The notes beneath the pieces are model-generated. The model did not search any database and was not told the DNA's origin. It was given only the letters and a program-made list of their open reading frames with translations. From Helicobacter sp. (GTDB lineage Bacteria; Campylobacterota; Campylobacteria; Campylobacterales; Helicobacteraceae): a DNA stretch of 9,638 nt. Positions 4,995 to 9,638 of this stretch are shown here, piece by piece. The DNA is taken from contig JARIAP010000174.1 in the NCBI GenBank assembly GCA_029257755.1, forward strand, positions 1 through 9,638, read 5' to 3'. Both the position numbers and the translations under genes were made by a program. Position 1 is the stretch's first letter; each line of letters starts with the position of its first letter.

Positions 4995-5010
4995 AAGCAA
5001 AATATATTCC
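4995..5010 (-). promoter_or_regulatory. Sigma54 (RpoN)-type promoter for fliK
   Basis: Read on the minus strand the site is GGAAT-N5-TTGCTT, with the invariant GG and GC separated by exactly ten bases (GG at 5010-5009, GC at 4998-4997). This matches the epsilonproteobacterial RpoN consensus, roughly GGAAC-N5-TTGCTT, with one mismatch. Transcription should begin near 4985, giving a leader of about 43 nt that contains the AAGGA ribosome binding site of fliK. Position, strand and the flagellar role of the downstream gene all agree. Expression would then depend on the FlgR/FlgS-type activator pair known to drive hook genes in these bacteria. Confidence 0.8.
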
Positions 5011-5102
5011 TTAATATACATTTTTATTATAATATATAATATTAAAAAGCTAAAAAGTTAAATAATAGGGTATTAAATATGAGAATCTATAAGGAAAATA
5101 GC

Positions 5103-5135
5103 TTTTATAATAATTGATAAACAACTATTATAAAA
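5103..5135 (-). terminator. Hairpin after the Hsp70-like gene (weak terminator or 3'-end stem)
   Basis: Arms at 5103-5116 and 5122-5135 pair over 14 positions around a 5-base loop. As minus-strand RNA the single non-identical position becomes a G-U wobble, whereas on the plus strand it would be an A-C mismatch, favouring a role in the minus-strand transcript. It lies about 28 bp past the Hsp70-like stop. The stem is nearly all A-U and is followed by GCTATTTTCC, not a strong U run, so it may protect or attenuate rather than terminate fully. Confidence 0.45.
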
Positions 5136-5163
5136 AATGAAAAATCATTATTTTGTTGGAATA

Positions 5164-7344
5164 TTAATCTTTCAATACCTTATTCTCACTTTCAAAAAGT
5201 ATTGTATTAATATCATCTTTATGAACCACCATGTATTTAATTGTGTTTGGACGCACAATTTTTATGTATATATGATGATCATCTTTAACATGATCTGGAT
5301 CTATCTTACATGTAATTTTTTTAGATTCATTTATTGATAAGTTGCCTGTAGTTGCCCTAGCATCGGCTGTATAGTATAAATCAAACTCATCATTTGTATA
5401 ATCTAAAAGCTCTATTGGATTTCCATACTCTATATGCTCTAAAGTAATATCCTTTTTATCAATTAGCACTTCAAACTTATCTTCTCCATCATTTTGACCT
5501 AAGAAAAATTTGAATTTAGCCTCCTCATTTTCTGTAATTTCTGATGAAACCTTTATTGTTCCTTTTTTTCTACCATCTAATAATCCAAATGCAACACCTG
5601 TTTTACAAGTTATTGTTTTAGATATATCATCATCACTTTCTTCTGTTATACCCATTTCTTTCTTTTTTGCCTCTGCTTCTTCTGTGCCAAGTGGAGGGTA
5701 TAACTCATACTCTATATCTGCATTTTCTTTCATAAGCTCTTCAAATGCTTCTTTAACTAATATACATCTAGATGCATTGCCACCTAAAAATATATGTAAC
5801 TTATCTATACCTTCCATTTTATCTTTAGTATTATTAAAAGCACTAAAGAATTTCTCAACACCTTTCTTAATTTCATGTTTTAATATGTCTATTAATTCAG
5901 CATAATTACAATTAAGTAATATTTTTGTTTTTTGCTGACAATGTTTATCTAACAAATTATCTATCTCTATAGTTGTTTCTTGTTCTTCTGGTGATTTTTC
6001 CCTATATTGATTTGTATCATGTAGTATTTCTCTTAATTTTTTTATAAGTAGTTGCATATTTCTTTGTGCTTCTAAAGTTTTTGCTATAAGATGTTGGCAT
6101 TTATTTGTAATCTGCTGTCCTTTTGGTAATGTAAAGTTGCATTGTGATTCTGTCATTATGTCTGCATTTTTTTCAAACACTTTATATGCAAGTAATTCTA
6201 ATAGCTTTTCACCACCTAGATTTTCATCTCCATCTGCACCAAAATGTTTTATCTCAAATCTATATTGTTTCTCACTAATCTTTTTCCATATACCAAAATC
6301 AAAATCAGTAGTCCCACCACCAAAATCAAATACACCATAATAAATTGGTTTATCTAAATCTTTTCTTCTAAAGCCATATTCTTGTAATGCACTTATTGCA
6401 TATGCTGCTGGTTCAGTAGCAACTAAACTTACTCTAAAATCTTTCCCTTTATCTGTATTAAATATAGATTTAGGAATTGATTTTTTAATACCTCTCTCAA
6501 AGCTCTCTTTAATCTTATCTCTTATTTTTTTATCATATTTTACTGGATAAGAAAGGTAATATTCTAAAAAAATTTGCCCATCGTGCATTTGATTTATATA
6601 TCTACCGATATAATAAGCATAAATCTCTATTGGATCTATATCTCCAGAATCAATCTCTACAAAACATTTGAGTTTATGTATTCCATCTGTATCTCTTATA
6701 TTTGTTCCTTCATCATCTGCAGCCCATTGTTTGAGCTGGTTAAAAAATCTATAAAAATCATTTCCTTTTACACCTTCTAAACTATGTTCTGCTGTATGAG
6801 ATATAGAAATATCATTCCATTCTGTATGAGGACGAGAAATGCAGGAATTATATGCATCCATAAAAGATTTTATCTTTCTAAATTCAATCATTGTTGGATT
6901 TTCATAATCTGTTTCTTTCCCTTCTCTATCAACTTCTAATTTCCCTATTTTTATTAATCGTTTATAACTATTTTTGTCTAAATAAGCAGCAACGGTTGAT
7001 TTTGTCCCAAAGTCTATGGCAACTATACCACCATCTATAATATCTTTTACTGGATTTTTAGCAAATATTTCTTTATCTAATCTAAAAATAACCAACCCAT
7101 CATCTTTATATTTATCTCTATAAATATCCCAATGCCCCAATTTATCATCTGTTAATAAACTTGGCACATATTCATCAAGACCGGCTACTGTATAATCAAT
7201 ACTGCATAATTTTTTTATAACTTCATCTGCACTAATTTCACCATTTTCATTTGGTGTTAAAGCATTAAATAACTCTATTAGATGCTTATCCTCTTCTTCA
7301 TGAAACTTTATTTCTTTAATTGCAATACTATTATCATTACTCAT
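5164..7344 (-). CDS. Divergent Hsp70-family (actin-fold) ATPase
   Basis: A 726-residue protein with a complete Hsp70-type nucleotide-binding domain. Visible elements are phosphate-1 IVAIDFGTKST (107-117), the connecting segment VATEPAAYA (308-316), phosphate-2 GVFDFGGGTTDFDF (337-350), the GADGDENLGGEKLLELL stretch (369-385, equivalent to Hsp70 GD-x-x-LGGE), the adenosine motif LHIFLGGNASRC (516-527), and TCKTGVAFGLL (579-589). Unlike DnaK there are about 105 residues before the ATPase, and the 135 residues after it look beta-rich but show no classical peptide-binding domain or alpha lid. No signal peptide, so cytoplasmic. The ATG has AAGGA upstream. It lies 40 bp after a GrpE-like gene and is almost certainly co-transcribed with it, which suggests an ATPase driven by its own exchange factor. 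Substrate and role unknown. It is not the housekeeping DnaK. Confidence 0.9.
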   Translation of the reverse strand: MSNDNSIAIKEIKFHEEEDKHLIELFNALTPNENGEISADEVIKKLCSIDYTVAGLDEYVPSLLTDDKLGHWDIYRDKYKDDGLVIFRLDKEIFAKNPVKDIIDGGIVAIDFGTKSTVAAYLDKNSYKRLIKIGKLEVDREGKETDYENPTMIEFRKIKSFMDAYNSCISRPHTEWNDISISHTAEHSLEGVKGNDFYRFFNQLKQWAADDEGTNIRDTDGIHKLKCFVEIDSGDIDPIEIYAYYIGRYINQMHDGQIFLEYYLSYPVKYDKKIRDKIKESFERGIKKSIPKSIFNTDKGKDFRVSLVATEPAAYAISALQEYGFRRKDLDKPIYYGVFDFGGGTTDFDFGIWKKISEKQYRFEIKHFGADGDENLGGEKLLELLAYKVFEKNADIMTESQCNFTLPKGQQITNKCQHLIAKTLEAQRNMQLLIKKLREILHDTNQYREKSPEEQETTIEIDNLLDKHCQQKTKILLNCNYAELIDILKHEIKKGVEKFFSAFNNTKDKMEGIDKLHIFLGGNASRCILVKEAFEELMKENADIEYELYPPLGTEEAEAKKKEMGITEESDDDISKTITCKTGVAFGLLDGRKKGTIKVSSEITENEEAKFKFFLGQNDGEDKFEVLIDKKDITLEHIEYGNPIELLDYTNDEFDLYYTADARATTGNLSINESKKITCKIDPDHVKDDHHIYIKIVRPNTIKYMVVHKDDINTILFESENKVLKD

Positions 7345-7384
7345 AAACTATCCTTAAATTAAAATATGTTAAAATTAAGCTTTG

Positions 7385-8800
7385 CTACTTAACTTTTACT
7401 AGAGATTTATTTGTTTTATTTCCGTATTTAAATCCCTTGCAAATAACTTTATCAACTTTTCCTTGATTTGGTCCATCGCCAATTTTTGTATGGATATTTT
7501 CATTAAATTTATCATCTTCTTTTACTTCCATGCGAGATAATTCATCTTCACCACTTTGTTGGAGAGCATTAAATGATTTATCAAAAAATGCAACTAGTTG
7601 GCTAACATCTCTATCATATATTGCCTCTGTTTTTATATATTCATATAATTTATCTAAAACATCCTTATTTTGACTAGTTCGTATGAAATTATATGAGGTA
7701 TCATATTTAATATACACATATTTTTTCTTAAATTCATCTGGTAGAGATTTATAAATATCGTATAATTCCATATTCATATCTTTTTTTGTATTATCTAGTT
7801 CTTTTTGTGAGTTTTGTAAATTACTTGTTAATGTTGTATTTTTTTCTTCTAATTCTTTATTTTTTTCTTGTAACTTTGCTTTATTTTCACTGCATTCTTT
7901 ATTGATAGAATCTATTTTAGAATTTTTATCCTTAATTGTTGCTTGTAATTTATTTTCATAATCTTGTTTTATAGATTCTAATTCTTGTTTATGATTTTGT
8001 TTTGTAGATTCTAATTCTTTATTTATTTGCTCTAAGTCTTTTTCAAGTTTTGATTTTATTTGCTCTAATTTTGCTTTTTCTGCTTGTAGGCTAGATTTAT
8101 CATTGTTTAGGTTTGATATTACAATATCTTTAGATTCTAATGTTTTGTTTAATGTATCTTTATCTTGTTTTAATGTATTTACATTTTCTTGTAAATGCTC
8201 TTTATCTGTTTCTAATGTTGCTTTATTAGTCTTTAAACCTTGTATTTCTTTGTCTTTTTCTTGCAAAGTATTATTTTTAGATTCTAATTCTTGTTTCATA
8301 GAATCTACTACTTGTTTATATTGTGTTGCTTGAGATCCTAGCTTTGTTTTGTGTTCATTTTTTTGAGATTCTAATTCTTGTTTATGATTTTGTTTTGTAG
8401 ATTCTAATTCTTTATTTATTTGCTCTAAGTCTTTTTCAAGTCCTGTTATTCTTTGCTCTAGCTTTGCTTTTTCTATTTGTAGGCTAGATTTATCATCGTT
8501 TAGGTTTGATATTTTACTATCTTTAGATACTAGCTTGTTATTATAATCATTCAAATGTTCATTTAAACTTTTTATTTGTTCCTTTAAAGCTTTGAGATCG
8601 TCTATTTCTTCTTTGTTATAATTAAATACCTCATTATTCTTACCATCTCTTTTGATAGTAATCTTAACAGATTGTGGTTTAATCTCCATTTCTATTCCTT
8701 TTACATTTATCTTTTTGCGATTGTATTTACAAACCTTATCAAATATCTTTATAAATATTTTATAATATTTATATTTTTTCTTTTTTTTATCCTTAGGCAT
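7385..8800 (-). CDS. Long coiled-coil protein with GrpE-like C-terminal domain (putative Hsp70 exchange factor)
   Basis: The 471-residue product has four parts: a very basic start (1-37, five consecutive Lys); a short probable beta segment (about 38-62); a Glu/Lys/Gln/Asn-rich coiled coil (about 63-340); and a C-terminal region (341-471). The last 45 residues follow the GrpE beta-domain pattern: FNENIH (432-437, as DPNVH in E. coli GrpE), GKVDKVICKGFKYG (447-460, the 'G-x-V-x-x-V-x-x-x-G-Y/F' core) and the final SLVKVK. GrpE is the nucleotide exchange factor of Hsp70, and the next gene encodes an Hsp70-like ATPase. E. coli GrpE is 197 residues, so the coiled coil is greatly extended; residues 94-145 are repeated at 225-276. 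The first ATG has AAGGGA upstream; a second ATG at codon 38 (8689) also has a good site, AAGGA. Assignment is by motif and context only. Confidence 0.75.
   Translation of the reverse strand: MPKDKKKKKYKYYKIFIKIFDKVCKYNRKKINVKGIEMEIKPQSVKITIKRDGKNNEVFNYNKEEIDDLKALKEQIKSLNEHLNDYNNKLVSKDSKISNLNDDKSSLQIEKAKLEQRITGLEKDLEQINKELESTKQNHKQELESQKNEHKTKLGSQATQYKQVVDSMKQELESKNNTLQEKDKEIQGLKTNKATLETDKEHLQENVNTLKQDKDTLNKTLESKDIVISNLNNDKSSLQAEKAKLEQIKSKLEKDLEQINKELESTKQNHKQELESIKQDYENKLQATIKDKNSKIDSINKECSENKAKLQEKNKELEEKNTTLTSNLQNSQKELDNTKKDMNMELYDIYKSLPDEFKKKYVYIKYDTSYNFIRTSQNKDVLDKLYEYIKTEAIYDRDVSQLVAFFDKSFNALQQSGEDELSRMEVKEDDKFNENIHTKIGDGPNQGKVDKVICKGFKYGNKTNKSLVKVK
7973..8128 (-). repeat. Internal direct repeat, copy 2 (coiled coil of the GrpE-like gene)
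   Basis: Encodes residues 225-276 of the coiled-coil protein. Offset exactly 393 bp (131 codons) from copy 1 with no indels over 52 codons. Bases 7973-8048 are identical over 76 bp to 8366-8441, and the remainder differs at a few positions. It lies wholly within the coding frame. Confidence 0.95.
8366..8521 (-). repeat. Internal direct repeat, copy 1 (coiled coil of the GrpE-like gene)
   Basis: Encodes residues 94-145. Shared protein landmarks with copy 2 are ISNLN, DKSSLQ, EKAKLEQ and the perfectly conserved block LEKDLEQINKELES. The exact 76-bp identity at DNA level indicates a recent duplication or gene conversion rather than shared coiled-coil bias alone. Confidence 0.95.
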
Positions 8801-8823
8801 AGTAATCCCTTTTTACTAGATTA

Positions 8824-8857
8824 ATTATATTTTACTATATTTATGCTATATTGTCAA
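8824..8857 (-). promoter_or_regulatory. Candidate sigma70-type promoter for the GrpE-like/Hsp70-like operon
   Basis: On the minus strand TTGACA (8857-8852) is followed after 17 bases by TAAAAT (8834-8829), and TATAAT (8829-8824) overlaps the end of that box. The start would lie near 8820, about 20 nt before the ATG at 8800, leaving room for the AAGGGA site. A perfect -35 hexamer is unusual in Helicobacter-type vegetative promoters. A second TTGACA occurs 11 bp further upstream (8868-8863). The promoter overlaps the end of the preceding small ORF. Confidence 0.45.
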
Positions 8858-9217
8858 TATGTTGTCAATACATTCCATTGTGCTTCTATCCAAAGGTTGC
8901 ATGTCTTTTATCTTTTTTCTTTGTTTATGATCTGCCTTTATATATGTTAGTATGAGCAATACCTGCGAACTATTTTTATTTAATTTTTTATTTTTATATT
9001 CATGCTCTATATACTTATGTAAAATTGTAACTATCTTGTCATCAAATAAAGAATCTAAATCTTTAACCAATAAGAATACTAATTTAAGTGTATCAACCCA
9101 TTTTGTATTTATTTCAATATCATTATGTGATATACTAAATTTATCATTATTTTTATCAAAATGAAAATATAGAAAAATATATAAAGAAAGTAATATAAAA
9201 TTATTTGGACTTTTCAA
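8846..9217 (-). CDS. Hypothetical protein, possibly a 5'-truncated remnant
   Basis: I do not recognise this 123-residue frame. It is Lys/Asn/Ile/Leu-rich and appears mostly helical, with a hydrophobic stretch near the N terminus (FILLSLYIFLYF, about residues 7-18) and a basic patch DHKQRKKIKD (about 95-104). There is no HPD motif, so it is not a J-domain protein. The only start near the 5' end is a TTG at 9217-9215 with no ribosome binding site, no ATG occurs before residue 105, and an in-frame stop lies at 9263-9265. It ends 45 bp before the GrpE-like gene, so it could belong to the same operon or be leftover 3' sequence of a decayed gene. The length of the open frame in such AT-rich DNA supports past or present coding, not a function. 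Confidence 0.4.
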   Translation of the reverse strand: MKSPNNFILLSLYIFLYFHFDKNNDKFSISHNDIEINTKWVDTLKLVFLLVKDLDSLFDDKIVTILHKYIEHEYKNKKLNKNSSQVLLILTYIKADHKQRKKIKDMQPLDRSTMECIDNILTI

Positions 9218-9536
9218 TATGAAAAATGTATTTTGATAATGCTGTTTATAAATATAGGTATTTTAGTAAGTATGCTATTGTATCTATAGGAATATTAGAT
9301 GAATGATATGTATTTTTGATGTTAATATAGGTATTAATATGATAGTTTTATGATTATATGAGTAAATATGATAATAAAAAATAAGATATCTTGCTCTGAA
9401 TAAAACTTATTTAATTGGTCTTAACTTAAAATTTTCATTAAAAAATATAAATGATGATATTGAATATATATAAGTAAGATATTTTATATTTATAGTGTTA
9501 TAAATAATATTAGATAAATATTATAAGTTTATATTT
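9218..9536. other. AT-rich intergenic region with no intact gene
   Basis: About 320 bp between the hypothetical minus-strand ORF and the plus-strand gene at 9537. I see no tRNA, no insertion-sequence end, no CRISPR repeat and no ORF beyond a few dozen codons. On the minus strand there are open tracts in successive frames (about 9420-9334 and about 9350-9246) that could be remnants of the 5' part of the neighbouring ORF. An 8-bp inverted repeat lies at 9504-9524, close to a possible plus-strand promoter. Confidence 0.6.
9496..9504 (+). promoter_or_regulatory. Possible extended -10 promoter for the gene at 9537
   Basis: TGT followed by TATAAA reads as an extended -10 element about 32 bases before the ATG. 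It is followed immediately by an inverted repeat (arms 9504-9511 and 9517-9524, loop of five) that could be an operator. Both are short and AT-only in AT-rich DNA, so chance is a real alternative. Confidence 0.25.
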
Positions 9537-9638
9537 ATGAATCTTAAAGCTCTTTCGGAAGAATTTTCTATTAAAAAAGCAGTGTTAGAAATAGCCTCTT
9601 CTATAGTCATAGCTCTAGTAAATACAGGCATTATAGAT
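9537..9638 (+). CDS. Unidentified protein, N-terminal fragment (continues beyond window)
   Basis: An ATG at 9537-9539 opens a frame that stays open for 34 codons to the window edge (begins MNLKALSEEF). Base composition changes sharply here, from almost pure A/T to mixed codons with GCA, GCC, TCG and GGC, which supports real coding sequence. The visible part looks helical, with a hydrophobic stretch at about 18-33 that may be a membrane segment or a buried helix. The ribosome binding site is weak (TAAG about nine bases upstream). It is divergent from the rest of the window, so it is a separate transcription unit. Too little is present to name a family. Confidence 0.5.
   Translation, partial: MNLKALSEEFSIKKAVLEIASSIVIALVNTGIID

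Follow-up and report, generated by a model that had tools for sequence, protein, structure and literature searches.

The window analysed here is the whole of a 9,638-nucleotide contig from a Helicobacter sp. genome (JARIAP010000174.1, assembly GCA_029257755.1), and it carries a pair of chaperone-like genes on the minus strand. One gene, at 5164–7344, encodes an Hsp70-like ATPase of 726 amino acids (aa). The other, at 7385–8800, encodes a GrpE-like protein of 471 aa composed of a coiled coil, a helical head and a C-terminal GrpE-type beta-domain. A spacer of 40 bp (7345–7384, minus strand) separates the stop of the GrpE-like gene from the start of the Hsp70-like gene, and the two genes are likely to be carried on one transcript. 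The initial annotation had described them as an Hsp70-like/GrpE-like pair, and this observation is confirmed.

Features of the two proteins

The Hsp70-like protein comprises an N-terminal region (residues 1–103), an Hsp70-type nucleotide-binding domain (NBD; residues 104–595, at 5560–7035 on the minus strand) with the motifs IDFGTKST and VFDFGGGTTDFD, and a beta-rich C-terminal domain (residues 596–726). The structural model indicates an NBD fold of the PF00012 family, and the protein is predicted to fold like a chaperone Hsp70 with an intact catalytic site. The PF00012 profile itself gives no match to the protein at E ≤ 1, and the curated Pfam cut-off is not reached. K205, E311 and D340 are conserved in all 57 rows of the family alignment, as is each of the positions matching the DnaK catalytic residues D8, T11, K70 (an approximate match), E171, D194 and T199. 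The family departs from DnaK at the position of T12, which is K in 56 of the 57 rows and R in the other, and at the position of R167, the J-protein contact of DnaK, which is variable across the alignment. The model has no helical lid, with no helix of four or more residues beyond residue 666. Among the 50 VIA structure matches listed, five (DnaK, GRP78 and ciliary Hsp70) extend through the C-terminal domain to at least residue 720, with whole-chain root-mean-square deviations of 6.6–9.3 Å.

The beta-domain of the GrpE-like protein occupies residues 422–471 (7388–7537, minus strand). Its proposed similarity to GrpE was borne out by hhalign with controls, Pfam, structure and a genome test, which identify it as a C-terminal GrpE beta-domain (PF01025). 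A Pfam scan of 49 GrpE-like members finds GrpE in nine (best E-value 2.5e-6) and every other family in at most one; on the window protein PF01025 scores 13.4 and 16.1 bits, below the curated cut-off of 25.8. The genome test gave matches in 21 non-carrier genomes. Housekeeping GrpE (186–240 bits) accounts for 19 of the 20 matches fetched, and in the 21st genome, G076, the match falls on a gene to which PF01025 gives 171 bits. In the monomer model a coiled coil is present, and the helical head (residues 36–96 of the modelled piece) aligns poorly with GrpE. The coiled coil owes some of its length to an in-frame duplication within its coding region, a direct repeat of 234 nt with copies at 7962–8195 and 8355–8588. 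The copies are 82% identical, start 393 nt apart and also match at the protein level. GrpE-like open reading frames (ORFs) have a median length of 254 aa (n = 87, redundant loci and fragments included).

Some members of the Hsp70-like family have additional features. A biotin/lipoyl-type domain (PF00364, from precomputed annotation) is found on P0080, P0090, P0105 and P0115, each of 1061 aa, and in P0080 it is N-terminal in the alignment. Tandem Hsp70-like genes share a stretch with one GrpE-like gene in L148, L149, L072, L069, L075 and L078. ORF 2 of L040 (929 aa), upstream of the module, contains the Hsp70-like motif LGGDNFDNEI, yet it is not matched by the family profile.

Distribution and gene neighbourhood

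The Hsp70-like protein is matched by 5502 of 7997 scored candidates at E ≤ 1e-3, and none of the 120 matches listed carries an Hsp70 Pfam domain. The gene is accessory. With the own genome included, it is matched in 8 of 99 genomes and in 19 of the 398 genomes of the order Campylobacterales (13 of these carriers from one genus); it is matched in none of 13 congeners and occurs on two plasmids. Phage records and viral contigs gave no match. The 8 of 99 genomes, the lack of matches in congeners and the plasmids together point to a mobile module. All 14 genomes searched in the genus have fliK, and the pair is missing from all six congener regions around it (L210–L215), which indicates that the pair is an addition at that place. 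Two of these regions (L211 and L212, 60–85% identity) match the window in having the genes for a rhodanese, a ctp protease and purC after fliK. On the other side of fliK, four regions share one gene of 144–148 aa and two have different genes. The stretch upstream of fliK (window 5000–9638) thus differs among congeners without being strongly variable.

The initial annotation had placed the pair apart from the housekeeping chaperones. This holds in the congeners, of which 12 of 13 have a housekeeping GrpE and 10 of 12 a full-length dnaK; in the window genome, which is 67% complete, neither housekeeping dnaK nor grpE was seen. A PF00012 search of that genome has as its sole match an ORF that by eye is MreB-like. 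The neighbours of the pair in the window have no HPD motif, and the 1035 neighbour ORFs contain 14, of which only one (L078, 89 aa) looks J-like by eye. This agrees, as does the lack of conservation at the DnaK R167 position, with the earlier statement that no J-protein is linked to the pair, although a J-protein may be encoded elsewhere.

Gene neighbourhoods were compared in the best 79 loci of 256 relatives, from one scan of species genomes; 48 of these loci had contributed rows to the GrpE-like profile. A GrpE-like gene is present in 68 of the 79 loci and absent from 11. It lies directly upstream on the same strand in 59, with a gap of less than 60 bp in 51 of these, and elsewhere in the stretch in nine. 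The pair is also found in 14 of the 19 carrier genomes of the order, the own genome included, so that the co-occurrence expected for cognate genes is upheld at both levels. An ATPase of the FtsK/HerA type is encoded on the same stretch as the pair in 30 of the 79 loci (HerA-like in 26, one of them in pieces, and EssC-like in four). The HerA-like ATPase is about 1030 aa long and has a serine-rich insertion. One representative matches NCBIfam NF033849 at 6e-40, below the cut-off, and the PADLOC models mad8 (2.8e-21) and HerA (best 9.4e-19). Another recurrent family, of about 235 aa and present in 24 of the 79 loci, has a hydrophobic, glycine/serine-rich stretch at the start of its listed members.

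A third protein of about 170 aa is encoded in 28 of the 79 loci, together with the ATPase in 27. The third proteins of HerA-type and EssC-type loci belong to a single family (hhalign 97.8%, E 9e-13). The HerA-type protein is also matched by two side families (97.3 and 97.2%), neither of which matches the EssC-type one directly. In the order, the third protein is found in 16 of 398 genomes, namely 15 of the 19 carriers and 1 of the 379 others. The Fisher p of 1e-22 is too strong, because 12 of the 15 carriers belong to one genus and so do not count as independent. Four carriers lack the third protein: the window genome, G343, G092 (a 3.2-kb contig) and G396.

In gastric Helicobacter the pair is followed by the third protein, a WXG100-like protein, a nuclease toxin, SUKH immunity, a small helical protein and an EssC-like FtsK ATPase, in this order. 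Single representatives match PF06013 (WXG100-like, 4.5e-4, below the cut-off), WHH (nuclease toxin, 9e-12) and TIGR03924 (EssC-like ATPase, 5e-31, below the cut-off). Seven of eight long EssC-like proteins have one Walker A motif, and the eighth has none. The 17 Campylobacterales contexts, from 16 genomes, divide into 12 with an EssC-like ATPase, two with a HerA-like ATPase and three with neither; 13 of the 17 have a GrpE-like ORF, and 11 of the 12 EssC-like contexts have a WXG100-like ORF.

Two further observations concern the Campylobacterota modules. The ORFs for the Hsp70-like protein, the toxin and the ATPase are split in many EssC-type modules of gastric Helicobacter (L141–L147 and L150–L154). 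Near the modules in L139, L140, L148, L149 and L079 a further family recurs (cluster 42, about 395 aa), with a weak Pua-like match in one member.

Origin of the window copy

A quick tree of 105 Hsp70-like proteins places the window in a clade of 16 Campylobacterota rows (Shimodaira–Hasegawa-like approximate likelihood ratio test 100). Four of these are HerA-type and 11 EssC-type, and the window, at the end of a long branch (0.81), is alone in having no visible ATPase. In two close relatives a RelA_SpoT-domain gene (L014:7747–8973, plus strand, and L139:11058–12272, minus strand; E-values 1.8e-10 and 5.1e-14) lies directly upstream of the GrpE-like gene and overlaps its start by a few bases. 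In the window, a 123-aa ORF at 8846–9217 (minus strand) matches only the C-terminal tail (approximately residues 302–400) of this protein, with phmmer E-values of 1.8e-6 to 4.3e-5 (1696 ORFs) and a tblastn E-value of 5e-6. This ORF is probably what is left of such a gene, or else a separate gene for the tail. Given the clade of pump-type loci and the tail-only match, the ancestor of the window copy was likely a more complete module.

On the upstream side, the contig extends only 838 bp beyond the GrpE-like start. Within these limits, a family scan of eight window ORFs found no McrB-like GTPase, no GTPase of the GAP1-N2 kind, no DnaJ family member, and neither WXG100 nor an EssC-like ATPase. 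Outside the contig, the 67% complete genome likewise yielded neither a HerA-like gene nor the third protein. Since the pump is on neither the contig nor this remainder, the window copy may be a stripped core, its partners may lie in the missing third of the genome, or it may be a stand-alone derivative. A promoter-like sequence, TTGACA-17-TAAAAT (11 of 12 positions), is present at 8829–8857 on the minus strand, 28 bp ahead of the start of the GrpE-like gene; the window shows no excess of matches of this kind (31 found, 41 expected).

Possible roles and relation to known systems

We tentatively favour, at a little short of even confidence, a reading in which a mobile module prepares effectors for an FtsK/HerA-type pump and the pair is its chaperone core, with the GrpE-like protein as a private nucleotide-exchange factor. 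We infer that the two window proteins are cognate in binding and nucleotide exchange. The Hsp70-like protein would bind ATP at its intact catalytic site, and its lid-less beta-domain would engage a client. After hydrolysis, by analogy with GrpE, the beta-domain of the GrpE-like protein would wedge into the nucleotide cleft and ADP would leave; the coiled coil may join two GrpE-like heads or tether them to other parts. The pair would cycle without a linked J-protein, bind effectors and pass them to the pump. In relatives, the likely clients would be the small proteins and toxins encoded beside it. A bolder proposal, which we consider unlikely, is that the Hsp70, its private GrpE and the third protein energise or load two FtsK/HerA-family pumps, one HerA-like and the other resembling EssC of the type VII secretion system (T7SS), with WXG100 proteins and nuclease toxins. 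Such a translocation motor would be the bacterial counterpart of the one that drives mitochondrial import, with weapons as its cargo, and the window would hold the bare engine.

Several results weigh against a role tied to a pump. The ATPase and the third protein are both missing in 48 of the 79 loci, and of the 31 loci in which both flanks reach at least 8 kb, 13 have the ATPase and 18 have neither. The initial annotation had regarded such pairs as stand-alone Hsp70-like genes with a private exchange factor, which fits these 48 loci and does not fit the 30 with an FtsK/HerA-type ATPase. The loci without pump and third protein, as seen in Domibacillus, Peribacillus and Lysinibacillus, would also suit a specialised folding or assembly chaperone with one envelope or cytoskeletal client, in which case the ATPase linkage would reflect shared islands and no pump role; the four listed proteins with the PF00364 domain, from Bacillaceae where the source is named, point the same way. 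We regard this explanation as distinctly unlikely. It is weakened by the third protein, which is nearly confined to carriers (mostly of one genus) and common to two pump types, since shared islands alone would not yield such a protein. The window copy could instead be a decaying, functionless remnant of a former module, as its long end branch, the pump and third protein that were not found, the tail-only match of the upstream gene and the split ORFs among gastric Helicobacter copies would allow. This seems quite improbable for ORFs that stay open over 726 and 471 codons, with the catalytic residues kept and the coiled coil duplicated in frame.

The main rival, which we hold to be somewhat unlikely, is an intracellular anti-phage or abortive-infection module, in which the pair would keep an effector (a RelA/SpoT-type enzyme or a HerA-associated protein) inactive until an infection disturbs the pair and the effector is set free, with no export. 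It draws on the RelA_SpoT gene of the two close relatives and the tail-like piece in the window, on the PADLOC HerA matches of the one HerA-like ATPase scanned, and on the patchy distribution. It is also supported by conflict systems already in the literature, some with HSP70 and GrpE (Kaur et al. 2020, PMC7159879) and others with Hsp70-like proteins and EssC-/HerA-like ATPases (Bell et al. 2024, PMC11090510). On the other hand, the RelA_SpoT link is seen in two loci only, the Hsp70-like protein has no PADLOC match at E ≤ 1, and the EssC-type loci with their WXG100-like, nuclease-toxin and SUKH genes resemble toxin delivery more than phage defence.

The pair shares with DnaK–GrpE the NBD fold, the catalytic residues, the GrpE beta-domain and the neighbouring position of the genes. 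It differs in having no PF00012 or PF01025 match above cut-off, no modelled helical lid, lysine at the T12 position in 56 of 57 rows, no conservation at the R167 position, a different helical part, a variable coiled coil and an accessory distribution. GrpE is the one type of bacterial exchange factor known, and its beta-domain is pushed into the DnaK cleft, which opens; the specialised Hsp70s HscA and HscC are independent of GrpE (Bracher and Verghese 2015, PMC4753570). Organellar import, with mtHsp70 and a GrpE homologue, shares with the proposed mechanism the coupling of an Hsp70 and a GrpE-type factor to translocation (PMC4753570), but here no J-protein is linked, the pump is different and transport is only a proposal.

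Of the GAP1-N2 GTPase neighbourhoods, about 14% likewise contain dedicated HSP70 and GrpE genes, together with DnaJ (PMC7159879). Those systems have their own GAP1-N2 GTPases and DnaJ-FNIII proteins, unseen in the window, whereas the recurrent neighbours here are ATPases and the third protein. Type III-A CoCoNuTs have Hsp70-like domains and three kinds of extension, including EssC with WXG100 and EccE3-HerA (PMC11090510). They share with the present loci an Hsp70-like NBD, a substrate-binding domain that is only putative here, coiled coils and two similar ATPase cassettes, one with WXG100 and a nuclease, the other with a variable insertion and a small helical protein; CoCoNuT genes in Helicobacter are similarly split. 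A CoCoNuT, however, requires an McrB-like GTPase, which the eight window ORFs lack, and CnuC. Its Hsp70-like Walker A-like motifs are called degenerate, whereas the catalytic residues are kept here, and the available part of that text does not mention GrpE. In the mobile T7SS noted by Zhang et al. (2012, PMC3482391), the YueA-like ATPase has three domains, of which the middle one alone is active. This system shares with the EssC-type Helicobacter loci a WXG100-like protein, an EssC-like ATPase with a single Walker A motif, a nuclease toxin and SUKH immunity. As described in the available part of that text, an Hsp70–GrpE pair does not belong to it and chaperones go unmentioned, and the window has no T7SS genes. 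The combination of Hsp70-like protein, GrpE-like protein, third protein and pump was not found in the literature searched.

The window thus holds one member, missed by the Pfam Hsp70 model, of a large set of Hsp70-like proteins that have a GrpE-like gene of their own nearby in most of the loci compared. With links to FtsK/HerA ATPases of two kinds and to a nearly exclusive third protein, these genes make it possible to ask directly whether bacteria use Hsp70 cycling to power or gate protein delivery.

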